Below, one piece after another: positions 61 to 13,869 of a DNA stretch of 32,460 nt. The notes beneath the pieces are model-generated. The model ran no database searches. It was not told where the DNA came from and worked only from the letters and a program-made list of their open reading frames with translations. A program made the translations under genes and the position numbers. Within the stretch, counting starts at the first letter, position 1. Each line of letters starts with the position of its first letter. Source of the stretch: Nitrospirota bacterium (GTDB lineage Bacteria; Nitrospinota; Nitrospinia; SZUA-224); assembly GCA_003229375.1 (NCBI GenBank), contig QIDP01000012.1, positions 1-32,460 of the forward strand, in the 5' to 3' direction.

Positions 61-2265
61 TTAAAACCCTCCCTGAATGGTCATCTTGCCCCTTATTGCT
101 GCCCCATTAAGATCAGTAATTGTCAATACATCAAAACTAATACTATCGCCTGCTGCGATATCAGGATCTCCGGATGGCGAATTGGCAATAAATATTGTAA
201 TGATCAGCACATTATCGGTTTTCCCATCTGTATCAGACCAAACTGCTGTTAACTGGCCGGTCTGCCCTCCTTTATCGCTATCAATCCAGCTATGACCACC
301 TGAAAGCTGTAATACAGTGTCAATATTAGTTTCATCAATTACAGGCCCATTGGTTGAATCAGAAAAATATATGGTAACAGTGTCTCCGCTCTCTAATCCC
401 ACCCCGCCTGAAGTGTTGCCTGCAGTTGCCTTTGCCTCATTGAAAGGGGATCTCGGATAGCGATAATTTCCATCCCAATGGCAATTACCGCTGCAGAATT
501 CAGGGTATCCTTTTCCGGTAAAATCTCCATCCGCCACTTTACCATATTCAGTTCCTGAATCGTATTCTATAGAAAAGTTCCATTCATCCCATAAGTAATA
601 ATATTGACCATCAACCCCATGAACATTATGACAGGTGACACAACCTGGAATTCCATTGGTGGAACCTCCCCTGTAATACCACCCTTCCATTGATTCGATT
701 AAATGGTACAAATGAAGATTAAATTGACGGTCCATATTATAGCTATAATAATCATGAAAACCTGAGACCATAAAGTCAACAGTATAAGGCCACTGGTTAT
801 AATTTGGCCTGGATTGTGCATAATTACCACCTGCAGCCACCCCGGCTAATTCAGATATGGTAAGCACGGATGGATCATTATTATGACAGTCAAGACACAG
901 CTTATACCTGGACTCATCCCATGTGGAGGAGGTTATTGGCAGTGTAAGCTTATTGGTTAGAAGCCCCTTGTTGTCTGACCCATGTGCATTGATAGAACCG
1001 TCCCCTGTTCCTGAGTTGTAATTTCCATGACAACCTGTTCCTGCTGTGCCATCTCCCACACAGGTTAGCCCCTCTCTTCGATGACCGTATTGTTTTTCCC
1101 AGCTCTCTTTAATCTTAATGCCAGCTATATTTGGCGCTGTCCCCAGGGTGTTACCACTTGAAAACGGCTTTAGTGCAACAGCTTCAGTAGTTGCTCCGTC
1201 TGAGTCATGACAGCTCAGGCAAAAAGGCTCAAGGCTTGCCGGATTATTAGTCTGATAAACGATGATCTGACCTGCCGCATCCTTGTTTTTTAATCTCACT
1301 GTTCCGCTCATGTGATTGTCCATATCATGGCAGATAAGGCAATCATTCTGTGTTACTATTTCATTATTTCTGTTATTATAATCAATAACATGATGGGATT
1401 CCTTATCAAAATCTCCTCCTGAGCCAAATACCTGCCGTATTGTTCCTATAGCTAAAGTATGGCAATATGTGCAGGCCGGCAATGTCCATCCTCCTGTTCC
1501 ATACCAGTCAAGGGTATCTGTCCCGTGACAGTTAAGAGAAGAACAGTTTCCGGTTTGAGGGCCTGTATCGTTAATCCACTGTCCGTTTGGATTAGCTAAA
1601 TCAAAATTGACTATGTTAATGTCAGGATCCTCTGTGTCCAGTTGCCCATTCGCATGTGTATTATTATCCGTATAATCAAAATGGCATCTTTGACAGTCAA
1701 AACCCTTATCGCTGACATGAGTAATATGCTTTCCGGCTGCAGCCTGACCATTTGTTGTCAGCGGATCAGGAGACAGCAAACTTCCGGATAAATGGCATGT
1801 TGTTGTGCAATTCGTAAAAGTTCCGCCTCCTCCATACCAATTGATAATATTTGTTCCATGACAGTCAAGAGAAGAACAGCTTCCTGTTTGGAGGCCTGTA
1901 TCGTTAATCCATTGTCCGGTTGGATTAGTTGAATCAAAATTGACTATGTTAATGGCAGGATTCCCTGTGTTCAGTTGTCCATTCATATGTGTATCATTAT
2001 CCGTATAATTAAGATGACATTCTGCACAGTCAAAACCCATATCATTGACATGAGCAATATGCCTTCCTGCTGTACCCCGGCCATTTGTTGTTAATGGATC
2101 GGGAGACATAGAACTCTCAGGGGAATGGCATTTTGTGGTGCAATCTGACACGAGACCACTGTTTGGTTTGTGCGAGGAGATAGAATCCGGCCCTTCATCT
2201 AAACCACAGTCAAAAATCAGTATAGGCATTAACAATAACACTAACCATTGTATCTTTGTCTTCAT
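61..2265 (-). CDS. Multiheme c-type cytochrome, probable surface lipoprotein (about 13 hemes)
   Basis: A 734-residue exported cytochrome, likely carrying electrons at the cell surface or in the outer periplasm. An N-terminal hydrophobic stretch ends at Cys20 (LIFDC), an imperfect lipobox. I count 13 heme-binding candidates: seven CXXCH, three CX3CH (CTTKCH, CTTTCH, CSGNCH), two CX4CH (CSSLDCH, CSSLNCH) and one CX9CH near residue 400. The CX4CH/CXXCH mixture is typical of the Geobacter-type multiheme family. Residues about 41-146 and 152-257 are a tandem duplication with a period of about 111 residues. The last 120 or so residues contain no heme motif and look like a beta-sandwich domain. It is the last gene of the barrel/7-heme/13-heme operon, 61 bp after the preceding stop. 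The family call is firm; the cellular location and partner are inferred. The non-CXXCH sites may not all bind heme. Confidence 0.85.
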   Translation of the reverse strand: MKTKIQWLVLLLMPILIFDCGLDEGPDSISSHKPNSGLVSDCTTKCHSPESSMSPDPLTTNGRGTAGRHIAHVNDMGFDCAECHLNYTDNDTHMNGQLNTGNPAINIVNFDSTNPTGQWINDTGLQTGSCSSLDCHGTNIINWYGGGGTFTNCTTTCHLSGSLLSPDPLTTNGQAAAGKHITHVSDKGFDCQRCHFDYTDNNTHANGQLDTEDPDINIVNFDLANPNGQWINDTGPQTGNCSSLNCHGTDTLDWYGTGGWTLPACTYCHTLAIGTIRQVFGSGGDFDKESHHVIDYNNRNNEIVTQNDCLICHDMDNHMSGTVRLKNKDAAGQIIVYQTNNPASLEPFCLSCHDSDGATTEAVALKPFSSGNTLGTAPNIAGIKIKESWEKQYGHRREGLTCVGDGTAGTGCHGNYNSGTGDGSINAHGSDNKGLLTNKLTLPITSSTWDESRYKLCLDCHNNDPSVLTISELAGVAAGGNYAQSRPNYNQWPYTVDFMVSGFHDYYSYNMDRQFNLHLYHLIESMEGWYYRGGSTNGIPGCVTCHNVHGVDGQYYYLWDEWNFSIEYDSGTEYGKVADGDFTGKGYPEFCSGNCHWDGNYRYPRSPFNEAKATAGNTSGGVGLESGDTVTIYFSDSTNGPVIDETNIDTVLQLSGGHSWIDSDKGGQTGQLTAVWSDTDGKTDNVLIITIFIANSPSGDPDIAAGDSISFDVLTITDLNGAAIRGKMTIQGGF

Positions 2266-2326
2266 ATTGTCAGCATTTTAAAAAGATTCATTAGTTTTGG
2301 TTCAAACACGGGTTTTCGTTCAGACA

Positions 2327-2941
2327 CTAATTATGACAAAGTGTACAGTCCAACTTCCCATTTACCGAATGCGGAGCTGACGTATGCGGAGCCTGGCGGT
2401 GGCATACCACACAGTTGCTCTCAGGAGTAATATTCGAACCAAAATGACACCACGAACAATGCCTTTCTACCCAGTTTCCAGTATGATTGCGCGGTGCTGT
2501 TTCATTATGGCAGCTAACGCAATAGTCCTGCCTGTGACATGTCAAACATCGCTCACGATTTCCGCTTGCCATAAATCCATGACTCCGTGTCCGCCACATG
2601 TTCGTATGATCACGGGGCGGACGGATATTATGGCACTCAATACAGTCATTCCTCTCATGGCAGGTGAGACAGGTCTTCCCCCGCTGCCCTGCCTCATTCA
2701 TATTCAGGTCTGCCAATGCACCATGATACTCAAGCCAGTTAGCCTTGTGAGAGTTCGGTTTGGGATAAGGGATTTTTCTTTGTGTAATCGATGCGGTGTT
2801 ACGCTGAACAGAATTATCACCCTCTTTGTTTCTTTCCCATCCCCATGTACAACTGCTCAACAATCCCGTGACTGCCAGCATAAGGCCAATATTTAATAAA
2901 CTCTGAAAACATCCTATTACGGTATGATTCTTAAAAGACAT
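2327..2941 (-). CDS. Periplasmic heptaheme c-type cytochrome lipoprotein
   Basis: Seven CXXCH motifs (CLTCH, CIECH, CLTCH, CVSCH, CSWCH, CVVCH, CTLCH) are packed into the C-terminal two thirds of about 204 residues. I chose the ATG at 2941, which starts MSFKNHTV, over the upstream in-frame ATG. It gives a normal signal peptide with a good lipobox (GLLSSC), and it overlaps the stop codon of the upstream barrel gene by 11 bp, which suggests translational coupling. In porin-cytochrome conduits (Omb/Oma/Omc of Geobacter, Mtr of Shewanella) a small periplasmic multiheme protein sits inside or beneath the barrel and passes electrons to an outer multiheme protein. Gene order here (barrel, small cytochrome, large cytochrome) matches that plan. 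The role is inferred from the neighbourhood; the cytochrome assignment is direct. Confidence 0.85.
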   Translation of the reverse strand: MSFKNHTVIGCFQSLLNIGLMLAVTGLLSSCTWGWERNKEGDNSVQRNTASITQRKIPYPKPNSHKANWLEYHGALADLNMNEAGQRGKTCLTCHERNDCIECHNIRPPRDHTNMWRTRSHGFMASGNRERCLTCHRQDYCVSCHNETAPRNHTGNWVERHCSWCHFGSNITPESNCVVCHRQAPHTSAPHSVNGKLDCTLCHN

Positions 2942-4349
2942 AGCGCAATCCCAGTTTAAATGTTTGATAATTTTCGATAGTATCCTCGTATTCATAACTG
3001 CTGTTAGCGCTGAAATGCCTGTTTAACGGGACATCTATCTTAACATAGTAGGTTTGAACCTCATCCCTCTCCCCGCGTTCAATGTAATAGTCGTATTTAT
3101 AGAGACTGTAATATGTCCCCCCATTGATTTTAGCACCTTTCATTACATTATTGAATTTGTATCCCATATCCAATCCTGCAGAATTAAACTCCTTATCATC
3201 GGTCTCCCAATGCTCTCCGATGAGTGAAAATGACAATCCATCATACAAGATATCGTTCACATCAAGAATGGTAAAGATACGCTTATACCCGCGATTAAAA
3301 GCACTTTCACTCCGGCTCCCGACAAGTTCACGTTGGAAATAGCCGATATCCAGCGCATAATGCGGACCAAACAGTTTACGTACCTTTATATCGAAACTGT
3401 GGTATGGAAAGGACTCTCCAAGCACATCGTAGTAATAAGAGAGCTCATTAGATAACTCTTTTTGGGTGCTGAGCTGCCTGAGATAACTCATGCTCAATTC
3501 AATATCCGCATCAATGAATGTATTAACAGCCCGTATCTTAATGTCCCGTGCTTCACCATTTACATATCTCAGTCTTGTCATGGCCTTAAGGAAAGAGGAA
3601 AAACGCTGCCATACCTTAAAGGAAAGGAGCTGGTCGTCCTGATCAGAGTCTGAGAAAAGGTTACGTTTGTCATGCACATAAAGATAATCCATGCTTAATG
3701 AAGTAATATCAAGAGGTGAGTAGTCAATACCAATTCCGCTCAGTGTATCTGTCCCCCAATCGTGATCTATTTCATAAAAATGGGCAGCGACACCTCCATA
3801 AACTGTCAGGTTCAGCTTCCAGGATGCCTCGATATCTGCTGCAAACCCGTCAAAAAAAAATGGTTCATCCCTGGTACTGGCCTGCCGGCCCACCCGAAGT
3901 TGTGTTAGATACGGAATCAGATGATTCATATCAAAATGCGCCTCATAGAGATATACAGTCGAACTGGAATCTTGCATATTACCTATATCCTCAAAAGGAA
4001 AATAGGTCTTCCTATCCTGATCGCCATCCACGTCCTCCCTTGCTGTTCCGAAAAAGTGAAATTCATATCGCTCTTCCTCAGGCATCGTCAAATCGAACCG
4101 CATTTGTTCGTAAAAATCCTGGTCACTTATACGCTCACCAGAGATACGTGTTGTCCGAAAGACGTATTTAGTTGATATGTATCCTTTAAGACTGTATATC
4201 TTAGGAGTATTCTTCGGTTGAGAAGTCTTTTCATAATAAGGACTTGCGTCAGCAGCCCACATACGACATGGAAACAAAATGGCCATACCAAGGAGAATAG
4301 AGAAATACACAAAAAAGATTTTGCGAAACATTATCTTTTTGTATTGCAC
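2931..4349 (-). CDS. Outer-membrane beta-barrel protein of a putative porin-cytochrome complex
   Basis: About 472 residues. After a signal peptide (MFRKIFFVYFSILLG, probable cleavage near CRMWAADA) the protein is a series of alternating amphipathic strands rich in Tyr, Phe and Arg. It ends in LGLRYVF, a terminal aromatic of the kind used as the BAM beta-signal. There are no heme motifs. I place the start at the GTG at 4349 because GGAGG lies 7 bp upstream; the longer frame starting at 4388 has no such site. The gene is followed at once by two multiheme lipoprotein genes, the arrangement of outer-membrane electron conduits. Sequence alone does not show homology to OmbB or MtrB, so the family is given only as an outer-membrane barrel. 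It could also be a general porin co-opted into this operon. Confidence 0.7.
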   Translation of the reverse strand: MQYKKIMFRKIFFVYFSILLGMAILFPCRMWAADASPYYEKTSQPKNTPKIYSLKGYISTKYVFRTTRISGERISDQDFYEQMRFDLTMPEEERYEFHFFGTAREDVDGDQDRKTYFPFEDIGNMQDSSSTVYLYEAHFDMNHLIPYLTQLRVGRQASTRDEPFFFDGFAADIEASWKLNLTVYGGVAAHFYEIDHDWGTDTLSGIGIDYSPLDITSLSMDYLYVHDKRNLFSDSDQDDQLLSFKVWQRFSSFLKAMTRLRYVNGEARDIKIRAVNTFIDADIELSMSYLRQLSTQKELSNELSYYYDVLGESFPYHSFDIKVRKLFGPHYALDIGYFQRELVGSRSESAFNRGYKRIFTILDVNDILYDGLSFSLIGEHWETDDKEFNSAGLDMGYKFNNVMKGAKINGGTYYSLYKYDYYIERGERDEVQTYYVKIDVPLNRHFSANSSYEYEDTIENYQTFKLGLRYVF

Positions 4350-4370
4350 ATCAAATCCTCCCTTTGTATA

Positions 4371-4399
4371 ATGATAATAGTTGAGCACTGAAAAGTCAA
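4371..4399 (-). promoter_or_regulatory. Candidate sigma70 promoter for the barrel/cytochrome operon
   Basis: On the minus strand, TTGACT (4399-4394) and TATCAT (4376-4371) are separated by 17 bp. Transcription would start near 4365, a short leader before the GGAGG and GTG start at 4349. Assigned by eye against the consensus. Confidence 0.45.
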
Positions 4400-4410
4400 T
4401 TGATAGAATG

Positions 4411-4439
4411 TTTTGTCAGGCAATAATGTAGGATATAAT
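4411..4439 (+). promoter_or_regulatory. Candidate -10 region for the 9-heme cytochrome
   Basis: A perfect TATAAT lies at 4434-4439. The upstream hexamer is weak: TTTTGT at 17 bp or TTGTCA at 15 bp. The expected start point is only 1-3 bp before the ATG at 4448, so transcription from here would give a nearly leaderless mRNA. Confidence 0.3.
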
Positions 4440-4447
4440 AGCGGATA

Positions 4448-5203
4448 ATGATGAAAAAGCACATCTTCCTTGGTATATTGCTATTCCTGTCGCAATCTAT
4501 CTGGCCCCTTCCTGGTCCGGTTTATACACTTGTATCTGCCGGGGAACTTCCCTGTCTTAGATGTCACAAGTCAAAAAAGGCTGGAAAGGTTGTTCATCCT
4601 GCCCTTGAGATGGGCTGTTCCACATGTCATCTGTCTCCCCACGAAGAGGAAAAGCCAGAGCTTTCCCTTATGTCTGATCCTCCAGGCCTCTGCTTTAACT
4701 GTCATGACCAGGGGGGATTTACGAAGAAACATCAGCATACTGCTGTTGCCTTAGGCATGTGCACTTCGTGCCATAATCCTCATTCAAGCAACAATGAAAA
4801 TCTCCTTGCAGCAGATATCCCTGACCTGTGTTATACCTGCCATGATAAAGGGATATTTACCAAAAAAACTGTTCACCCGCCGGTTGCATCAGGACAATGT
4901 TCCATATGCCATAATCCCCATTCCTCGGACAATATGTTTAATCTTGAGAATCCGATATGGGACATGTGTGTTACCTGTCATGATGACAAGTCTTCCGGCA
5001 AGCATGTTATCGGCGGTTTTGGATTTGGTGACATGCACCCTACCAGGGGAATACCCGATCCTGTTCGGGATGGGAGAGAGCTTTCCTGTACGAGCTGCCA
5101 TAACCCTCATTCCTCAAACTTAAAACACCTCTTTGTCAATAATACACTTTCTCCGGGTAACCTGTGCTCGATGTGTCATAAGAAAATAACTATTCAGCCC
5201 TGA
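4448..5203 (+). CDS. Nonaheme periplasmic c-type cytochrome (doubled CXXCH family)
   Basis: A 251-residue secreted protein with an N-terminal signal peptide (MKKHIFLGILLFLSQ) and nine CXXCH motifs: CLRCH, CSTCH, CFNCH, CTSCH, CYTCH, CSICH, CVTCH, CTSCH, CSMCH. Three copies of SCHNPHSS or ICHNPHSS show the repeated doubled-CXXCH unit found in many periplasmic decaheme-like cytochromes. It is transcribed divergently from the barrel/cytochrome operon with a spacer under 100 bp, so the two units may share regulation. Its likely job is to shuttle electrons across the periplasm between an inner-membrane donor and the outer-membrane module, which is an inference. Two consecutive ATGs (4448 and 4451) are both possible starts, and neither has a clear Shine-Dalgarno sequence. 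Confidence 0.88.
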   Translation: MMKKHIFLGILLFLSQSIWPLPGPVYTLVSAGELPCLRCHKSKKAGKVVHPALEMGCSTCHLSPHEEEKPELSLMSDPPGLCFNCHDQGGFTKKHQHTAVALGMCTSCHNPHSSNNENLLAADIPDLCYTCHDKGIFTKKTVHPPVASGQCSICHNPHSSDNMFNLENPIWDMCVTCHDDKSSGKHVIGGFGFGDMHPTRGIPDPVRDGRELSCTSCHNPHSSNLKHLFVNNTLSPGNLCSMCHKKITIQP

Positions 5204-5384: not shown

Positions 5385-6254
5385 CTATAACCCGGCCAGA
5401 TCGAGTAATAGAGGGAGATGGGCCTCTGATCCTATAGGCATGATGTGGATGCCATCTACCATCATATCCTTTGTCCTGTGAACGAATTCCGAGGCCAGTT
5501 CAATCCCTTCACGGACAGGGTCATCAGCAGATTCCAGTTTAGAGATAATATTATCAGGGATTGGCCTGGTAAGCACCTTCTCATTCAAAAAATGTATCAT
5601 CTTTGCCGATCTCAAAGGGGTCACTCCTATAAGTATCTTTGTATTAATATCCTTAACCCTGTCAAGGAATTCCTTTAGTGATTCTATATCGAAGAATGGC
5701 TGTGTCTGAAAAAACTCTGTCCCTGCCTCTATCTTTTTCCTAAGTTTCATTAATTGCAGTTCAAAAGGGGCTGCAAATGGATTTAACACCCCTCCTAAAA
5801 AAAACTCTGGTGATCCATTCAACCTTTTGCCAATCATACTCTCCCCTCTCTGAAGCCTGCTTATGATATCTATAAGTTGAACAGAATCCAGATCAAATAC
5901 CGCTTTAGCATCAGGATGGTCACCCAATGAGGGGTGATCTCCTGTCATCACGCAGAGATTCTCGATACTTAGGGCAGCCGCCCCAAGCACATCTGATTGA
6001 AGAGCGAGTCTGTTTCTATCACGGCAGGTTATCTGCATAATAGGTTCATGCCCGGATTCCTTGAGTAGATGGCTGAAGGCAAGGGAACTCATCCTCATTA
6101 TACCACGCTGATTATCTGTTACATTGATAGCATCAATTCTATCGCCTATCTTTTCAGCAATAGCCAGGGCATCTCTGACATTTGTTCCCCTTGGCGGAGG
6201 AATTTCAACTGTAACCACAAAATCCTTCTTATTGAATGTATCACGCAGTTTCAT
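5385..6254 (-). CDS. metF: 5,10-methylenetetrahydrofolate reductase
   Basis: A 289-residue protein close to the usual MetF length of about 290-300. It catalyses reduction of methylene-THF to methyl-THF, supplying methyl groups for methionine or the methyl branch of the Wood-Ljungdahl pathway. Visible family features are the N-terminal VTVEIPPPRG (residues about 15-24), INVTDNQRG, MTGDHPS (flavin/folate site region) and FFQTQPFFD, all in the expected order of the FAD TIM barrel. The EIPPPRG form resembles the MetF half of YitJ-type proteins rather than the EFFPP form of enterobacterial MetF. The start ATG is 1 bp after the fliE stop, so it is probably translated from the flagellar mRNA. No metV or corrinoid genes are adjacent, so the pathway cannot be chosen. 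Confidence 0.9.
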   Translation of the reverse strand: MKLRDTFNKKDFVVTVEIPPPRGTNVRDALAIAEKIGDRIDAINVTDNQRGIMRMSSLAFSHLLKESGHEPIMQITCRDRNRLALQSDVLGAAALSIENLCVMTGDHPSLGDHPDAKAVFDLDSVQLIDIISRLQRGESMIGKRLNGSPEFFLGGVLNPFAAPFELQLMKLRKKIEAGTEFFQTQPFFDIESLKEFLDRVKDINTKILIGVTPLRSAKMIHFLNEKVLTRPIPDNIISKLESADDPVREGIELASEFVHRTKDMMVDGIHIMPIGSEAHLPLLLDLAGL

Positions 6255-6255
6255 A

Positions 6256-6573
6256 TTATACCTGCATCCTCACGACCTCCTTGTATGCCTCAATGATCTT
6301 ATTCCTTACCTCCATGGTTAACCGGAAGGCTATATCTGCTTTGCCTAGAGCTATCATGGTTTCATGGATATTCTTGGTATCACCTGTGACCATCTCCTCA
6401 ATTGCCTTATCCGCCTCTTTCTGAAGCTCATTCACCTTTTGGAGAGACTCTACCAGGGTCTCTCCAAAGCTCTTTTCTCCCTCTGCCGGTGACTGTACAG
6501 AGGTTCCATCTCTATTATTAATAGAAGGGGTAAGTATTGACTCTATATGATCCTTACTAGGTATATCGTTCAT
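6256..6573 (-). CDS. fliE: Flagellar hook-basal body protein FliE
   Basis: About 105 residues from the ATG at 6573 (MNDIPSKD), the normal FliE size. The C-terminal half carries the family signature: SFGETLVESLQKVNELQKEA followed by the MVTGDTKNIHETMIALGKA region and a final RNKIIEAYKEVVRMQV helix. FliE joins the MS ring to the proximal rod. An in-frame extension to 6636 exists but it reads through an inverted repeat (MEYNLLTL), and the same residues appear in the repeat-derived extension upstream of the ferredoxin gene, so I reject it. No Shine-Dalgarno is visible before 6573; the repeat abuts the gene. It sits after flgB but flgC is missing between them, and metF rather than fliF follows. 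Confidence 0.9.
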   Translation of the reverse strand: MNDIPSKDHIESILTPSINNRDGTSVQSPAEGEKSFGETLVESLQKVNELQKEADKAIEEMVTGDTKNIHETMIALGKADIAFRLTMEVRNKIIEAYKEVVRMQV

Positions 6574-6586
6574 AATAGAAAAGTTA

Positions 6587-6669
6587 AGTGATCTAAAGTG
6601 CCTAAAGTGATCTAAAGTTAAAAGATTATATTCCATTAACTTTAGGCACTTTAGATCACTTTAGGCACT
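6587..6669. repeat. Family A inverted repeat, full copy (between flgB and fliE)
   Basis: Left arm 6587-6621 and right arm 6636-6669 are inverted copies around the loop core AAGATTATATTCC. Each arm is built from three short tandem units of CTAAAGTG followed by CC or ATC. Within an arm the CC and ATC variants alternate, and the alternation is out of phase between the arms. The element fills the flgB-fliE spacer where flgC would be expected. Related copies lie near 9273, 13430, 13651 and 23960. Confidence 0.85.
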
Positions 6670-6677
6670 CTTTCTCC

Positions 6678-7103
6678 TTATCTTCCCTGTTCAACAGCGT
6701 ATTTTATCAATCCGCCTCTTTTAGTCATTGCCCTGATAGTTGCACTGTACATCAACTGATTTTCAGCAAGCTTTGCCATCTCCCTGTCTATATCCACGTT
6801 GTTGCCATCAACTCTGGATACCCCTTTCTCCGGTACTATTTCAGGTTTTATCCCCTTAAAGTCCTTGTTCTTTCCACCTATATGTCCGGGATTGGTTGTC
6901 TTCATGACCAGGGTATCTCCTGAACCTATTGCGGTTCTTAATTCCTTCTCAAATTTTATGTCAACAGCCTTATAACCTGGGGTATCAACGTTTGCGATAT
7001 TACTCGAGATAATGGTATGTCTCATTGACTGGAAATCAAGCGCCTTCTTCAGCATTTGAGGTAGGGGATCAGAAAAGAGTATCTTATCTACGACTGTTGG
7101 CAT
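6678..7103 (-). CDS. flgB: Flagellar basal-body rod protein FlgB
   Basis: A 141-residue proximal rod protein. The N-terminal flagellar rod motif is clear (SSNIANVDTPGYKA at about residues 34-47), as is the C-terminal region beginning NNVDIDREMAKLAENQLMY. The start ATG at 7103 has AAGGAG 7 bp upstream. FlgB builds the flagellar rod with FlgC, FlgF and FlgG. In most bacteria flgC follows directly; here the next gene is fliE and the 104-bp gap holds a repeat. The rest of the flagellar genes are not in the window. Confidence 0.93.
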   Translation of the reverse strand: MPTVVDKILFSDPLPQMLKKALDFQSMRHTIISSNIANVDTPGYKAVDIKFEKELRTAIGSGDTLVMKTTNPGHIGGKNKDFKGIKPEIVPEKGVSRVDGNNVDIDREMAKLAENQLMYSATIRAMTKRGGLIKYAVEQGR

Positions 7104-7378: not shown

Positions 7379-7732
7379 CTATTTGGCCGTATTATGACAT
7401 TTGTTACAACTCCCTTTGGCACTGAATGCTTTTTGGCCTGCACCATGACATACCCCGCAAAATTTGCCTTCATTGATACTTTTCATGGTCAAGGCGTTGT
7501 CCTTATCAGCAGAACCTTTTTTCATCTTAAATACCTTCGCATGGCAATCAGTACATTTATTCCCCTTATCCTGTACATGAGTCTTATGGCTGAAGGTTAC
7601 TGCCTTTTGTCCTTTTGTATCGCTGAAAAGGATATCTCCTCCTCCTACCTTTGCAAATCCTGTCTCGATCTGCAATAGACCGAATGCAAAAAGCACAAGG
7701 AATATAGCGGCTATCTTATACCATCTATTCAA
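7379..7732 (-). CDS. Triheme c7-type cytochrome
   Basis: About 117 residues with a signal peptide (YKIAAIFLVLFAFGLL) and three CXXCH motifs (CTDCH, CGVCH, CNKCH). The pattern TFSHKTHV, then CTDCHAKVFKMKKG, then GKFCGVCHGAGQKAFS and CNKCH is that of the single-domain c7 triheme family, in which His of SHKTH is a distal ligand. I favour the TTG start at 7732, which lies 8 bp from AGGAGG (7746-7741). GTG at 7741 and ATG at 7738 are in frame but overlap or touch that Shine-Dalgarno sequence. It lies downstream of the 12-heme membrane cytochrome and is a good candidate for a soluble periplasmic shuttle between that protein and the outer-membrane conduit. Confidence 0.85.
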   Translation of the reverse strand: MNRWYKIAAIFLVLFAFGLLQIETGFAKVGGGDILFSDTKGQKAVTFSHKTHVQDKGNKCTDCHAKVFKMKKGSADKDNALTMKSINEGKFCGVCHGAGQKAFSAKGSCNKCHNTAK

Positions 7733-7805
7733 TATCATCACCTCCTCTCAATTTAATATAAATGCATATTGTAATCTATTTTTCATAAAAGTCAATTATT
7801 GATTT

Positions 7806-7925: not shown

Positions 7926-9143
7926 TCATTTTTTTTCTATCTTTGGAATCATCTTTTTTGCCTTTATAAGTCTTTTCCTGGCCTCTGAGATTAACATTCT
8001 TGAATATCTAAAATTATGAACCCCTTTACTCCCATCATTATCCACAATCTCTATTAAGGCCCTTGCCTCATTTATCAGAGGAGATACCCTGCTAACAACA
8101 TCAGGACTTGTTGAACTGATCTGTATATTTATCCAGGTAAGAAGCGCCATTGCACTACGATGATCATCAGATATCGCCTCCTGCCATAGATCTACTTTAT
8201 CGCTGTAAGTCTTCTCATGGCAGTTGACACAGGTAGTTTTGACCTCCTTTATAGAATGTCCTTCTGCTATCCCTGCATGACAGATGTCACACCCCACAGA
8301 TTCGGCCATCAAACCGGATTCACCTTTGACATCGGTCAAAGATTCACCCTTTCTGAATCTAACCTGATCTTCGTGACACCGGTCACACGAGGCTTTAACC
8401 TTTTTATGATGACAACCCAGACACCCTGCCCTGTCAAACAATATCTCTCCATGTGTCTCCTTATTAGAGTGACATCTGTCACAATATATAAGATTCTTCG
8501 GGTGACTCTGATGGGAAAAATTAATATCATATATCTTAAGTTTCTTAACCGCAAAACCGGCATGACATACCCTGCATTGAGATATAGAGGCGTGCTCTGA
8601 TTTTGGTAATTCTATAGAACCTTTAGGATGACATATCTTACAACTGGTTTCCTCTTTCACATGACACTTCAGGCATGTATCCATCCTGGGACGGTTTGTG
8701 GGTGGTCTTTCCCAATCATGAGCAATATTGTTGTGACAATCCACACATCCGGCTCCCACACTTTCTATATGAAATTTATGTGGAATCTTAATATTCAGTT
8801 TATTAAACTTATAGCCGGTTTGTTCATCAGTGATAATATCCTGATGGCAGCGTTCACAATTATGATTTACCCTTTCAGCATCTGCTGAAAACAGCGGATT
8901 ATAGCCTCCTGTTACAAACTGACCTTTTTGTGCATGACAATCATAACAACAGACAGTATCAGGATGAACTACTGACTTAATTCCAATATCCGGGGTCTCT
9001 CCTGTAGAGTGACAGGACAAACAGTAATTGCAACTCATTATGGTATAATAAGCCAGCATAGCTAAAGGGAGCATTCCTATTCCAACTCCCAAAAACCCCA
9101 CGACCAGCCATACCTTTAAAGAAAATTTCGGCATTTTAAACAT
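7926..9143 (-). CDS. Membrane-anchored dodecaheme c-type cytochrome
   Basis: A 405-residue protein with one N-terminal membrane segment (residues about 11-33) that anchors a periplasmic multiheme domain, in the manner of NapC/NirT-type quinol-linked cytochromes. Twelve CXXCH motifs occur between residues 41 and about 320: CLSCH, CYDCH, CERCH, CVDCH, CLKCH, CKICH, CRVCH, CDRCH, CLGCH, CDRCH, CDICH, CVNCH. An additional CNYC precedes the first heme. The last 80 or so residues have no heme and look helical and basic (ending KKMIPKIEKK). It lies directly downstream of the molybdopterin subunit, so it probably exchanges electrons with that complex or with quinol. The start ATG has no visible Shine-Dalgarno; a family B repeat lies just upstream. 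Confidence 0.87.
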   Translation of the reverse strand: MFKMPKFSLKVWLVVGFLGVGIGMLPLAMLAYYTIMSCNYCLSCHSTGETPDIGIKSVVHPDTVCCYDCHAQKGQFVTGGYNPLFSADAERVNHNCERCHQDIITDEQTGYKFNKLNIKIPHKFHIESVGAGCVDCHNNIAHDWERPPTNRPRMDTCLKCHVKEETSCKICHPKGSIELPKSEHASISQCRVCHAGFAVKKLKIYDINFSHQSHPKNLIYCDRCHSNKETHGEILFDRAGCLGCHHKKVKASCDRCHEDQVRFRKGESLTDVKGESGLMAESVGCDICHAGIAEGHSIKEVKTTCVNCHEKTYSDKVDLWQEAISDDHRSAMALLTWINIQISSTSPDVVSRVSPLINEARALIEIVDNDGSKGVHNFRYSRMLISEARKRLIKAKKMIPKIEKK

Positions 9144-9157
9144 ATATTTTAATGTAT

Positions 9158-9245
9158 CCGTTCACAGTTATCAGTTTACAGTTACAGTTTTTTCAATTTC
9201 TTTTTACTTTCTGTTTTCATTAACCGTTAACTGTAAACCGAGAAC
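9158..9245 (-). repeat. Family B interspersed repeat, copy 1
   Basis: Read on the minus strand, this matches the copies at 13754 and 17881. GTTCTCGGTTTACAGTTAAC is followed by the conserved core TGAAAACAGAAAGTAAAA, then GAAATTGAAAAAACTG, and then an inverted arm ending in CTGTGAACGG. The end arms are partly palindromic. Confidence 0.85.
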
Positions 9246-9270
9246 AAAGTTATTGAAAAATTCTTTATTA

Positions 9271-9299
9271 TCCATAACTTTAGCTCACTTTAGACACTA
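9271..9299. repeat. Family A half-site
   Basis: ATAACTTTAGCTCACTTTAG followed by ACACT is one arm of the family A inverted repeat without its partner. It lies between the molybdopterin gene stop and the family B copy. Confidence 0.6.
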
Positions 9300-9302
9300 T
9301 TT

Positions 9303-11624
9303 TTATACTTTCCTCACAGTCACAACCGTATCCATCCATGCCTGTCCACCACCAATGAAATCTGATCTGAGAGGGATAATAGGATTAGGGTGTTTACCAT
9401 TGCCTTGCTTCTCCCACCATATAAGTTGAGTATTCGGGTCTTTACTTTTAAAGTGTTTTGCCTGAGCGATCCTCCCATATCCCCAGTGTCCACAGCTATC
9501 AGAGATAGCCACTACATAGGGATGAATTCCATGGGTAACATGGGCCATGGTAATCAATCTCCCGATCCTGGATCTCACCTCTACTTTATCTCCATCCTTG
9601 ATTCCCCTTGACCTTGCAGTTTCTATGTTAATCCATATAGGGTTATTGTGAACTATCTCGGATAACCACATACAATTGGCAAGGTCCTGGTGAGTAAAGA
9701 CATTCCACTGAAAAGTGGTGAGGATCAATTCTCCCTTTATTATATCCTTATGCTCTGGAATCGCCACATATGCCGGCATAGGATCGAATCCATGTGCCTT
9801 CATCCTCTCCGAATATATCTCAAATTTACCTGAAGGGGTATTAAAACCATTTTTCTCGTAAGATCTATATACAGGTTTCTCATCCTTATCACACCAAACA
9901 CCTTTTTCCATAAGATAATAGAGCCCGCCGACATCTACCAATTTATCAATCTTTGATATGGCGGCATCCAGATAGTCCTCGGGTGTAGCAAAGTCAAAGT
10001 ACTTCTCCATTCCTCCACCAATCCTTTTTGCCAGTTCAATACATATCTCCATAAAGGATTTCACTTCGCCTAGTGGTTTTACCACAGGTTGTCGTATACT
10101 GATGAAAGGTACCATTTCAAAGGCAGGTGGAGACTCAAGCTCCCATCTCTCCAGATAGATCGCCTCTGGAAGAACAATATCAGCAAAAATTGTGCTCTCT
10201 GTCATGCTTGAATCAATGGCAACATAGTAGGGAATAATAGATTCGTCTTTCAGTATCTCTTCTGTCTGAGAACAATCCGGCCCGGCATAAACAGGATTAT
10301 GCTGATAGGTCATATAGATACCGGCCTTCTGTCTCCCGGCCTTGATCATCGGTAAAACAGCATATGGAATCTCATGAGGGGCAAGCGGGTAATCCCCGGG
10401 ATGTATAAGTTCGCTCTTGATTGATGGTAATGGAGGTGTTGGAAATGGTTCATTCAGTTGATAGGTACGGGGCAGACAAAATCCTCCTTCCACATCAATA
10501 TTACCTGTTATCGCATTAAGAAGCAGGATACATCTCTCATTATATGTCCCATTATAATGTTTTGTTAGTCCTCCTGTTGAAATCGTAGTAGCTGAATTAC
10601 TCGATGCAAACTCCTCTGCAATCCTCAGTATCTCCTCAGCAGGCACACCACTTATCATCTCTGCCATTTCAGGGGTATACTGGGAAAGGGATTTGATTAA
10701 CTCCTTAACAGAGACATTTGTCCATTTCTCAATAAACTCCCTGTCATATAATCCCCTCTTCATAATCACATTTGCCATGGCCAGTATAACTAAACCATCT
10801 GTACCGGATTTAATGGGAAACCACTCATCACTCTTACCTGCTGTCTGGGAAACACGGACATCAAAGGTAACCAGCTTGGCAGCATGATGCACCCTTTCCC
10901 CAACCACCCTGGTTATCCTTCCCTCCTGTATCCTCTGGGCAAAACTTGTACGCAGAAGATGCGCCTCATAGGGATTAGAACCAAAATTCAACATATAGTG
11001 AGTTCTGGCAACATCATTGACCTCTATCCCGGCCCCCCATGTGAGTTCCTGGGCTATCCTCTTGTTCTGTTTCCCTAAATCGGTATTAACAAGGCCATTG
11101 GGGGTTCCATAGGCATTTAAGAATCTCCTTGCAAAATCCTGTGTCGTTATATCCCTGGTACTCTGAAATATAAATTCCTCGGGATGTCCTTTTTCCATGA
11201 GTAATTTAAGCCTCGAAGCTATCTCGTTAAATGCCTCGTCCCAGGAGATCCTCTTCCATTTGCCCTCTCCACGTGCGCCGGCCCTCTTTAAGGGATAGAG
11301 GATCCTGTCAGGGTTATAGAGGAGATTAATACCTGCCTGTCCCTTTGCACACATCCTGCCACGGCTGTTCGGATGTTCCGGATTACCACCTATCTTCATC
11401 AGCAATCCATTCTCCACATAGCCATAGATTCCACATCTGGCATAACAGAGCAGACATGTACTTGGAATCGCCTTACGGAATTTACCGGTTGTCCTGGATA
11501 CCTGCCCCCCCCCCATAGTTAGCTCCAGGGCCTCTGAAAATAGCCCTGAATAGCTTCCTGCAGCAAGGATTGAAGCAGAAGCAGCGCCAATCTTTAAAAA
11601 CCTTCTTCGACTAATACTTGACAT
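9303..11624 (-). CDS. Tat-exported molybdopterin oxidoreductase, catalytic-type subunit (Psr/Ttr-like)
   Basis: About 773 residues from the ATG at 11624, which has AAGGAG 8 bp upstream; the longer frame from 11651 lacks this. The twin-arginine signal SRRRFLKIG is at residues 5-13. A [4Fe-4S] motif C57-x2-C60-x3-C64-x27-C92 is complete, followed by the DMSO-reductase-family domains: NFGSNPYEAH near 213-222, and a C-terminal pterin-binding domain with GIKDGDKVEVRS and SCGHWGYGRIA. At the place where PsrA/TtrA/Fdh relatives have the Cys/Sec Mo ligand (residues 178-188, LVNTDLGKQN) there is no Cys or Ser; Asp182 is the nearest possible oxygen ligand. With the FeS and NrfD genes upstream, the order FeS-NrfD-Mo matches ttrBCA. 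Substrate is unknown: tetrathionate, polysulfide, arsenate or an electron-transfer-only role like QrcB are all possible. Confidence 0.9.
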   Translation of the reverse strand: MSSISRRRFLKIGAASASILAAGSYSGLFSEALELTMGGGQVSRTTGKFRKAIPSTCLLCYARCGIYGYVENGLLMKIGGNPEHPNSRGRMCAKGQAGINLLYNPDRILYPLKRAGARGEGKWKRISWDEAFNEIASRLKLLMEKGHPEEFIFQSTRDITTQDFARRFLNAYGTPNGLVNTDLGKQNKRIAQELTWGAGIEVNDVARTHYMLNFGSNPYEAHLLRTSFAQRIQEGRITRVVGERVHHAAKLVTFDVRVSQTAGKSDEWFPIKSGTDGLVILAMANVIMKRGLYDREFIEKWTNVSVKELIKSLSQYTPEMAEMISGVPAEEILRIAEEFASSNSATTISTGGLTKHYNGTYNERCILLLNAITGNIDVEGGFCLPRTYQLNEPFPTPPLPSIKSELIHPGDYPLAPHEIPYAVLPMIKAGRQKAGIYMTYQHNPVYAGPDCSQTEEILKDESIIPYYVAIDSSMTESTIFADIVLPEAIYLERWELESPPAFEMVPFISIRQPVVKPLGEVKSFMEICIELAKRIGGGMEKYFDFATPEDYLDAAISKIDKLVDVGGLYYLMEKGVWCDKDEKPVYRSYEKNGFNTPSGKFEIYSERMKAHGFDPMPAYVAIPEHKDIIKGELILTTFQWNVFTHQDLANCMWLSEIVHNNPIWINIETARSRGIKDGDKVEVRSRIGRLITMAHVTHGIHPYVVAISDSCGHWGYGRIAQAKHFKSKDPNTQLIWWEKQGNGKHPNPIIPLRSDFIGGGQAWMDTVVTVRKV

Positions 11625-11642: not shown

Positions 11643-11786
11643 AAATATCAAATATCAAAATAAACATTTAAAAAGTAAATATATTTTTGAATATTTCTTT
11701 AGTCTTTTAAAGCCACATGAAAGTTGATTAAAAATATGCTTGTCTATAATTTACTTTTAAAATGTTTATTTTGATATTTGATATTT
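11643..11786. repeat. Family C AT-rich inverted repeat, copy 1
   Basis: Left arm 11643-11680 and right arm 11749-11786 are 38-bp inverted copies with one mismatch, beginning AAATATCAAATATCAAAATA. The 68-bp interior is AT-rich and non-coding. It fills most of the nrfD-like to molybdopterin gene spacer and ends 18 bp before that gene's start. A second copy is at 20678-20806. Confidence 0.88.
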
Positions 11787-11857: not shown

Positions 11858-12766
11858 TTAATGTAACGGTACACTCTGCCCCGCAATAACCACCACGACT
11901 CTCATTGAATAGACCCCTATAAGGGTTAGTATCGATGCAATAGTAACCCATGTTAGGCTTTTAGATGTTTTTTTGTTAAACACAAGAAAGAGAGGGACAA
12001 TACCTCCTAAAAATATCTCTATCCACAGAAATTCGAGACTGAAACTACCGAAAAGCATAAGCTTTACAACCTCATAGGCCTCTTTGGTCGACGTTAAAAG
12101 AACCAGAATCGCATTGAAGACCATAAAGAGATCCATTATTATAATTCCACCCATAAACTTACCCAGGCCCGTTATCAGTCCCTTATCCTTTTCCCTCTCT
12201 TCCGGGTTCTTTAAAAAGAATCTGTTTCTTATGGAGGCAATGAGTATAAGGAGGGCAATACCTGATACCATTGCTGATACAATAAATAACGAAGGCATCA
12301 GGGCTGTACTCCACAGGGCACGTCCCTTACCCAATGCAAGAATAAAACCTGTATATCCATGAGTACAGATCGCAAGGGGGATACCCAGTATTCCAAAAAA
12401 ATTGGCCATTTTCTGAGGGCCTTTAAATACAAACCATGCATATATAAGACCCGAGAGAGGATAAGCTGTCAAAAGAAAGGTTCCATACGTAATAGGAGAG
12501 GTAAAATTGAGGTATACAAAGAGGTGCCAGAATCTTAAAGGCCTCTCCAGGTCAAGAATCAGATTTATAGGGGCAAATATAAGCAGAATAGGCGCAAGGA
12601 CGGCGCCGATCTTTCCTAAAGGTTTATATTCAACCTTTCCACCGATTGTGGCTATAACCGAGACAACAAATGAACCAGCGCTCAGACCGGTTAAATAAAA
12701 GTAAGTCGCTATAAGATACCCAAGCGGTCTCTCATGCGGTATATTATAGATTATTTGGACATCCAT
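11858..12766 (-). CDS. NrfD/PsrC-family polytopic membrane subunit
   Basis: A 302-residue integral membrane protein with about eight hydrophobic helices. The first helix begins LGYLIATYFYLTGLSAGSF, the conserved NrfD/PsrC opening in which a small-residue-rich first helix lines the quinone pocket. LDLERPLRFWHLF after helix 2 is also typical. NrfD proteins exchange electrons and protons with menaquinol for an attached FeS/molybdopterin pair. It starts 3 bp after the ferredoxin gene ends, so the two are certainly co-transcribed. The shorter PsrC form is seen, not the ten-helix HybB/ActC form. No heme ligands are evident. Confidence 0.92.
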   Translation of the reverse strand: MDVQIIYNIPHERPLGYLIATYFYLTGLSAGSFVVSVIATIGGKVEYKPLGKIGAVLAPILLIFAPINLILDLERPLRFWHLFVYLNFTSPITYGTFLLTAYPLSGLIYAWFVFKGPQKMANFFGILGIPLAICTHGYTGFILALGKGRALWSTALMPSLFIVSAMVSGIALLILIASIRNRFFLKNPEEREKDKGLITGLGKFMGGIIIMDLFMVFNAILVLLTSTKEAYEVVKLMLFGSFSLEFLWIEIFLGGIVPLFLVFNKKTSKSLTWVTIASILTLIGVYSMRVVVVIAGQSVPLH

Positions 12767-12769
12767 CTA

Positions 12770-13399
12770 TCACTCTCCACCATCATCATGTCTCCAACCT
12801 TTCCAACCCTTCATAGGATCCATGACATCTAGATCTAAACCAATGTAATAGACCCTGGGCTCTGTAGCCAGCTCCGGTTTAAGGACCTGTACAGGATTTG
12901 TAGCAATAAGCTGGGCAATCTCGCTATTCGGATCGTTGATATCCCCGAATATCCTGGCTCTCCCTATACATACCTCTACACAAGCAGGTACCAGTTCTTT
13001 ATCTACCCTGTGATAGCACCAGTAGCATTTCTGTACATATTTTTTCAGCGGATTTATATGCCTTACATCGTAAGGACATGAGGCCATACAATACTTGCAG
13101 CCTATACAGCGATGTTCATCAATCATAACAATGCCGTCATTACGCTGCCATGTTGCCTTAACCGGACAGTTTTTCAGACAGATAGGGCTATCACAGTTAT
13201 TACAGAGTGAGGGGAGAAATGATCTGCTTACATTGGGATATTTACCTTTTTCTATTATCTTTACCCATGAGCGAAAGACCTTAAGAGGAACACCATTCTC
13301 AGCCTTGCAGGAGACTGAGCATGTATGACAACCGATGCATCGTCGAAGATCAATAAGAAAACCATATCTTTTCTTCCTTTTTTCTCCCTTTCTAATCAT
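12770..13399 (-). CDS. Four-cluster [4Fe-4S] ferredoxin subunit (TtrB/PsrB/DmsB type)
   Basis: About 209 residues with 16 cysteines arranged as four cluster motifs: C21-x2-C24-x2-C27-x3-C31, C66-x2-C69-x4-C74-x3-C78, C98-x2-C101-x2-C104-x3-C108 and C125-x2-C128-x11-C140-x3-C144. It conducts electrons between the NrfD subunit and the molybdopterin subunit. There is no signal peptide, as expected for a subunit exported by riding on the Tat signal of its partner. I start at the ATG at 13399 (MIRKGEKR). The longer frame to 13489 runs through family A and B repeats and is not credible. First gene of the FeS-NrfD-Mo-cytochrome operon. Confidence 0.93.
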   Translation of the reverse strand: MIRKGEKRKKRYGFLIDLRRCIGCHTCSVSCKAENGVPLKVFRSWVKIIEKGKYPNVSRSFLPSLCNNCDSPICLKNCPVKATWQRNDGIVMIDEHRCIGCKYCMASCPYDVRHINPLKKYVQKCYWCYHRVDKELVPACVEVCIGRARIFGDINDPNSEIAQLIATNPVQVLKPELATEPRVYYIGLDLDVMDPMKGWKGWRHDDGGE

Positions 13400-13429
13400 A
13401 CAGTTGATTCCTTTTTTAATTAAATGCCC

Positions 13430-13500
13430 CAACGTGCTTAAAGTCAAAAGATTATATTCCATTAACTGTAAACCGTGAACGGTTGACATTAACTTTAGGC
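13430..13500. repeat. Family A repeat interrupted by a family B fragment
   Basis: The family A core AAAAGATTATATTCCATTAAC is present, but 21 bp of family B-like sequence (13467-13487, containing TGTAAACCGTGAACGG) lies between ATTAAC (13461-13466) and a second ATTAAC (13488-13493). The A-type right arm TTTAGGCACT follows. In the intact copy at 6587-6669 ATTAAC occurs once and leads straight into TTTAGGCACT. Confidence 0.75.
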
Positions 13501-13558
13501 ACTACTGACATATTAGATATTTCTTATATATTTATATATGAATATTCTATTATACTAT

Positions 13559-13587
13559 ATAATATTGTAGGAAAAAACAAAAGTCAA
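13559..13587 (-). promoter_or_regulatory. Candidate sigma70 promoter for the FeS-NrfD-Mo operon
   Basis: On the minus strand TTGACT (13587-13582) and TATTAT (13564-13559) are separated by exactly 17 bp. Transcription would begin near 13552 and leave a leader of about 150 nt that contains the interrupted repeat. Confidence 0.55.
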
Positions 13588-13617
13588 GGCATTTTTAATT
13601 AATAAAATTTTATATGC

Positions 13618-13646
13618 TTGACAATACAGGGGGTTTATACGATATT
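13618..13646 (+). promoter_or_regulatory. Candidate promoter for the HEAT-repeat gene
   Basis: A perfect TTGACA (13618-13623) is followed 17 bp later by GATATT (13641-13646, four of six consensus positions). The leader to the ATG at 13870 would be about 215 nt and carries a family A and a family B repeat. Confidence 0.4.
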
Positions 13647-13650
13647 TATA

Positions 13651-13702
13651 AGTGTCTAAAGTGAACTAAAGATTATATTCCATTAACTTTCTTTAGGCAT
13701 TT
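13651..13702. repeat. Family A repeat, short copy
   Basis: AGTGTCTAAAGTGAACTAAA is followed by the shared core AGATTATATTCCATTAAC and an imperfect right arm TTTCTTTAGGCATTT. The 13400-13869 spacer otherwise holds divergent promoters and family B copies, and no gene. Confidence 0.75.
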
Positions 13703-13753
13703 AATAAATAAGCCAGTGCCTCTGATGATGGCAATTTGACTAAAAAATATCGT

Positions 13754-13852
13754 AACCGTTCACAGTTCACGGTTTACAGTTAACAGTTGATGAAAACAGA
13801 AAGTAGAAGGAAATTGAAAAAACTGATAACTGTAAACTGATAACCGTTAACG
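13754..13852 (+). repeat. Family B interspersed repeat, copy 3
   Basis: ACCGTTCACAGTTCACGG and GTTTACAGTTAACAG lead into the core TGAAAACAGAAAGTAGAAGG, AAATTGAAAAAACTG and a terminal arm ACTGTAAACTGATAACCG. It ends 17 bp before the start codon of the HEAT-repeat gene. Confidence 0.85.
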
Positions 13853-13869
13853 TTTACAAAATATCTGTC

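Follow-up and report, generated by a model that had tools for sequence, protein, structure and literature searches.

Loss of the Mo cofactor from a MopB subunit has been described for FhcB, Nqo3/NuoG and ActB (PMC10100899) and for QrcB (PMC6303296). QrcB is known as a cofactor-less subunit that occurs together with a 10-helix QrcD (PMC6303296, PMC13059093), and it has been described as being without redox cofactors (PMC13059093). The four QrcB sequences here that score above the model cut-off (L131-L134) keep the four FS0 Cys, which fits poorly with that description (PMC13059093). According to Duarte et al., ten-helix NrfD-family proteins accompany catalytic subunits that do not belong to the standard Mo/W type (PMC6303296). 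The MopB module of alternative complex III is derived near ArrA (PMC10100899), and a form with separate ActB1 and ActB2 exists (PMC9386147). In AioA and IdrA, no amino acid serves as a ligand of the bound Mo (PMC10100899).

The operon and its closest described relatives

The window, that is, the whole stretch of DNA that was analysed (32,460 nucleotides), contains an operon with the order FeS - NrfD - MopB - 12-heme cytochrome - c7. In the following list, "ligand-less" refers to the window MopB and its relatives without the Mo ligand (31 proteins) and "Cys-bearing" to 16 relatives that have it.

12770-13489, minus strand: four-cluster [4Fe-4S] subunit, PsrB/NrfC/TtrB-like (PF13247)
11858-12766, minus strand: NrfD/PsrC-like quinone-reactive membrane subunit of the short type, 302 aa (PF03916, E 1.7e-47)
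9303-11624, minus strand: MopB subunit without Mo/W ligand, 773 aa, with Tat signal
11349-11456, minus strand: FS0 [4Fe-4S] motif of MopB (C57, C60, C64, C92), unbroken in 31/31 ligand-less proteins
11073-11075, minus strand: Gly184, aligned with the Mo-ligand Cys of PsrA (alignments to 2vpw)
11064-11066, minus strand: Asn187, Asn in 31/31 ligand-less proteins versus 4/16 Cys-bearing relatives
10572-10574, minus strand: Gly351, aligned with Arg332 of PsrA (alignment to 2vpw)
7926-9143, minus strand: 12-heme cytochrome c with NrfH/NapC-like membrane anchor and c7-type heme repeats (12 CxxCH, PF14522)
7379-7741, minus strand: triheme c7-type periplasmic cytochrome (PF14522; TIGR04257 above cut-off)

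The MopB reading frame extends on the minus strand from an ATG at 11624 to a stop at 9303, and the coordinates given in the earlier note are right. A Tat signal, FeS cysteines at 57, 60, 64 and 92 and an intact domain layout had been read from the letters, and all were found: the N-terminus has the twin-arginine motif SRRRFLKIG, and the Pfam domains PF00384, PF01568 and PF04879, which together represent the molybdopterin, dinucleotide-binding and Fe4S4 parts of the protein, all matched. PhsA was the top NCBIfam model with 364 bits, not reaching the equivalog cut-off of 694. AlphaFold gave a good model (mean pLDDT 85, pTM 0.86), with low-confidence loops at 644-656 and 720-733, and PsrA (2vpw) is its best PDB match (TM 0.78, 29% identity). 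Judged by its sequence, MopB belongs near PsrA/PhsA and apart from QrcB.

The FeS subunit aligns with PsrB (2vpw_B; E 1e-52) over all four Cys groups and scores 237.6 bits with the TtrB model, which is under the model cut-off. The first ~30 residues of its open reading frame derive from an intergenic repeat, and the protein probably starts at the Met of MIRKGEKRKKRYGF. The operon is surrounded by intergenic repeats, both dispersed and inverted (9153-9298, 13439-13862, 6586-6669 and 11643-11786); the 61-nt arms of an inverted repeat at 9185-9245 and 13765-13825 are 92% complementary, and one repeat gives the identical residues MEYNLLTL at the ORF starts 13489 and 6636. For NrfD, a phmmer search against the PDB gave no match; in a simple hydropathy scan its short orthologues have 7-9 hydrophobic segments, whereas the QrcD-like protein of the same genome has 10. 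The 12-heme partner mentioned earlier is indeed there as the neighbouring gene, whose product aligns with 12-heme orthologues and matches the NrfH model weakly. Its last ~100 aa are similar to the helical C-terminus of MccA, an octaheme sulfite reductase (E 1.3e-05). The c7 gene adjoins the operon in a same-genus genome, too.

By sequence and fold, PsrABC/PhsABC are nearest to the window MopB, and the PsrB-like FeS subunit, the NrfD/PsrC-type anchor and FS0 are all retained in the window system. However, the window MopB is without equivalents of the Mo-ligand Cys and Arg332, and a multiheme cytochrome comes after MopB in the operon. QrcABCD resembles the window system in having a ligand-less MopB, an FeS subunit, an NrfD-family subunit and a membrane-bound multiheme cytochrome, but the window MopB falls into another clade than QrcB, its NrfD is short whereas QrcD has 10 helices, the cytochrome is 12-heme and NrfH-like instead of the hexaheme QrcA, and the gene order is a different one. 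The QrcB model gave 165 bits on the window MopB (cut-off 440) and the QrcA model 34.5 on the c7 protein (cut-off 180). Alternative complex III couples a cofactor-less MopB module to c hemes and functions as a quinol:cytochrome c system, as the window complex may do. In contrast to the window, where MopB and FeS are two genes (9303-11624 and 12770-13489), ActB is a MopB-FeS fusion; since the split into ActB1 and ActB2 is known, the unfused genes alone are not decisive. Further differences are the pentaheme ActA and the presence of two NrfD-like subunits (ActC, ActF) versus one NrfD gene in the window operon. AioA/IdrA share with the window MopB a Mo position without a protein ligand residue but belong to a distant part of the superfamily (AioA large-subunit model, 37.5 bits; cut-off 359) and have a Rieske partner and another FeS motif. 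Assignments of the window operon to Qrc, alternative complex III or AioA were considered and rejected, as model scores, tree or gene architecture did not fit. PMC8076601 tabulates NrfD-type complexes, and in the part of that table covered here no entry has the composition found in the window.

The former ligand position and the ligand-less clade

Searches of genomes, mostly metagenome assemblies (taxon names as in the records), yielded 31 ligand-less proteins, the window protein included, from several deep bacterial lineages. Gly occupies the former ligand position in the window protein and its counterparts from two genomes of the same genus (recorded as Nitrospirae and Nitrospinota), in four proteins from the class of Hainich H32-bin143 and in one from LacPavin proteobacterium; five proteins from the class of Deltaproteobacteria CG03_land have Glu, Asn or His, and Tyr, Phe or His is found in the 18 members that belong to the same class as bacterium BMS3Abin01. 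The ligand-less proteins form one clade in a 49-row tree (SH-aLRT 99). In a second tree with QrcB, in which 21 ligand-less rows were kept, they again form one clade (UFBoot 99/SH-aLRT 98), separate from QrcB. The nearest Cys-bearing relative (Bacillota, 52% identity) is placed as their sister, but this node is weakly supported (89/68). Proteins of the QrcB type branch elsewhere, with Cys-bearing lineages in between, and the ligand losses are therefore independent on this tree. Literature searches of open-licence papers found no description of the ligand-less clade.

As already noted from the sequence, the segment that should present the ligand (LVNTDLGKQN, residues 178-187) has no Cys, Ser or Sec. 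The ligand Cys of PsrA (2vpw) falls on Gly184 in the phmmer alignment as well as in a 34-sequence profile alignment, and the comparison with PsrA thus puts Gly, neither Cys nor Ser, at the ligand position. Column 184 is Cys in 16/16 Cys-bearing relatives; in the 31 ligand-less proteins it is Tyr (10), Gly (8), Phe (7), Glu (3), His (2) or Asn (1), and Cys, Ser and Sec are found in 0/31. When the 52 columns that are invariant in the Cys-bearing relatives were ranked by entropy in the ligand-less clade, column 184 came out highest with 2.26 bits, followed by a column with 1.33. Side chains of Phe and Gly are unable to coordinate Mo. Furthermore, most Cys-bearing relatives have Arg in column 351, which corresponds to Arg332 of PsrA, presumably a residue of its active site; in the ligand-less clade this column is mostly Gly, Ala or Ser. 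In the two same-genus genomes, whose MopB proteins are 90% and 87% identical, the segment reads NTDLGKQN and NTDLGREN; this agreement, together with the 31 relatives without ligand, rules out a sequencing slip at Gly184. On the other hand, the invariance of Asn187 indicates that the MopB pocket is not simply drifting. The window MopB keeps 93% of the positions conserved in the Cys relatives, which mutually mostly keep 85-96%, and QrcB controls keep 56-60%; as this share depends on divergence, and the QrcB proteins used as controls are much more distant, it does not discriminate as a test of cofactor loss.

The core of FeS, NrfD, MopB and multiheme cytochrome recurs across the ligand-less clade where the contig allows. 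In a uniform neighbourhood scan of loci with at least 1.5 kb of contig downstream, a codirectional multiheme cytochrome c gene lay within 1.6 kb downstream of MopB in 21/21 ligand-less versus 0/11 Cys-bearing loci (Fisher p 7.8e-9); the rows share ancestry, and the link is therefore strong as a pattern, yet close to one evolutionary event. These cytochromes have 12, 7 or 16 hemes; at a 22nd ligand-less locus, whose contig is shorter, the gene encodes 6 hemes. A NarJ/TorD-type chaperone gene (PF02613) is located beside MopB in 11/22 informative ligand-less loci and absent from the other 11, among them those of the window genus; since the absences sit in separate groups on the trees, the chaperone was probably lost more than once. 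No NarJ/TorD chaperone was found in the window operon, and the only PF02613 match of the window genome lies on contig C48, ~6.6 kb upstream of a Cys-bearing paralogue. Chaperone presence, being mixed within the clade, is evidence on both sides. MoaC was found in 26/31 genomes with a ligand-less MopB, so the cofactor is available, but this is uninformative on the MopB subunit itself.

The paralogue on C48 (6207-9542) is an FeS and MopB pair that retains the Mo-ligand Cys; in its MopB, Asp replaces the third FS0 Cys, a C-C-D-C pattern that is also seen in five other relatives. A distinct Qrc-like operon is located on contig C92 (4485-9390) of the same genome. It encodes a 5-heme cytochrome, a ligand-less MopB (760 aa), a QrcC-like FeS protein (306.7 bits, cut-off 400) and a 10-helix NrfD-type protein, and all four are under the equivalog cut-offs.

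A possible electron-transfer scaffold and competing readings

With moderate confidence, we propose that the product of the operon is a quinone:multiheme-cytochrome oxidoreductase of the membrane, whose MopB subunit no longer carries out Mo chemistry. This reading is suggested by the variability of column 184, which exceeds that of all other ranked columns, by the non-coordinating Phe and Gly, by the missing equivalent of Arg332, by the single clade apart from QrcB, by the multiheme link in every scanned ligand-less locus, by the unbroken FS0 Cys, by the lack of a NarJ/TorD chaperone in the window operon and by the distinct Qrc-like operon in the genome. The chaperone genes in half of the informative loci, the invariant Asn187 and the presence of MoaC in most genomes argue against it. 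In our model, a PsrA/PhsA-type reductase would have lost its substrate chemistry, retained the FeS chain and the quinone anchor, and gained a multiheme exit. MopB would then act as an electron-transfer scaffold between the four-cluster FeS/NrfD quinone module and the multiheme cytochrome, and electrons may pass along a chain that links menaquinone at NrfD, via the four FeS-subunit clusters and the FS0 cluster of MopB, with the 12-heme cytochrome anchored in the membrane and with the triheme c7. Their direction might be outward in this organism, from quinol oxidation to periplasmic and perhaps outer-membrane cytochromes, because the separate Qrc-like operon could provide for the entry of electrons and multiheme genes of the MtrC/DmsE kind are found downstream; this is the weaker part of the model. 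In function, the complex would correspond to Qrc and alternative complex III, but with an independent origin on an 8-helix-type NrfD. The earlier idea of a scaffold like QrcB that forms, with a 12-heme partner, a new type of quinone-cytochrome oxidoreductase gains indirect backing from the single clade, the released ligand position and the multiheme link; by its sequence, the protein sits near PsrA/PhsA and not with QrcB.

It is imaginable, though rather unlikely, that MopB binds Mo/W-bisMGD without a protein ligand, as AioA and IdrA do (PMC10100899), and turns over a substrate with electrons going to the cytochrome and quinone modules. Gly184 leaves space for such a site, half of the loci retain the chaperone gene, the conserved positions of the family are largely kept, Moco genes are present and Asn187 is invariant. 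However, Tyr or Phe occupies the position in 17/31 proteins and would be difficult to accommodate at a Mo centre, the Arg332 equivalent is gone, several subclades are without the chaperone gene, and a lost substrate better explains why a new multiheme subunit accompanies the ligand loss without exception; moreover, AioA/IdrA sit elsewhere in the superfamily, as the model score already indicated. Somewhat more doubtful still is the specific proposal that a clade within the PsrA/PhsA lineage binds Mo/W-bisMGD ligand-free and feeds or drains a multiheme cytochrome, which would be a second independent origin after AioA/IdrA. In that case, the site would possibly be arranged by Asn187 and would tolerate even Phe or Tyr where the ligand used to be.

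That another local residue, Asp182 or the clade-specific Asn187, serves as the Mo ligand seems improbable to us. Asp ligands exist in NarG-type enzymes, and Asn187 is found in the whole clade, but Asp182, the candidate of the earlier note, lies two residues before the ligand column and occurs in only 3/31 ligand-less proteins, all from the window's own genus; column 182 is Gly, Ser, Pro, Ala or Ile in most relatives. Asn187 is also present in 4/16 Cys-bearing relatives, and Asn is not known to act as Mo ligand in the MopB superfamily. We give very little credence to a true but diverged QrcABCD complex: the logic of ligand-less MopB, FeS, NrfD and multiheme cytochrome is shared, but the QrcB model score is far below its cut-off (165 vs 440 bits), the clade is separate, the NrfD is short rather than a 10-helix QrcD, there are 12 hemes instead of 6, and contig C92 has the better Qrc-like operon. 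A degenerate gene or an assembly error is as good as ruled out by the full-length frame, the pTM of 0.86 and the conservation both within the genus (three genomes) and across the 31 relatives, and no observation speaks for it.

If the loss of Mo chemistry is true, the clade adds a further independent case of cofactor loss, this time inside the PsrA/PhsA lineage: a substrate enzyme converted to a quinone-cytochrome wiring complex that still has the FS0 motif and a short NrfD. The window system, with its short NrfD and ligand-less MopB, would be a counter-example to the ten-helix rule of Duarte et al. (PMC6303296). Cys-bearing sisters in the same genomes as the clade make the transition from molybdoenzyme to scaffold directly testable. 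For annotation pipelines the clade is a caution, as its genes probably do not encode polysulfide or thiosulfate reductases.

A possible outer-membrane electron conduit is encoded a few kb downstream of the operon (61-5203). It comprises an MtrC-like multiheme protein with 12 motifs (61-2265), a 7-heme protein (2327-2995), a 485-aa protein that matches no family and may be a porin (2931-4388), and, on the opposite strand, a DmsE-like 9-heme protein (4448-5203); phmmer of the 734-aa multiheme protein against the PDB gave no match. The region that follows the operon (5385-7103) has genes for the flagellar basal body (rod protein, FliE) and one that resembles MTHFR, and genes of similar size come after the operon in a same-genus genome.
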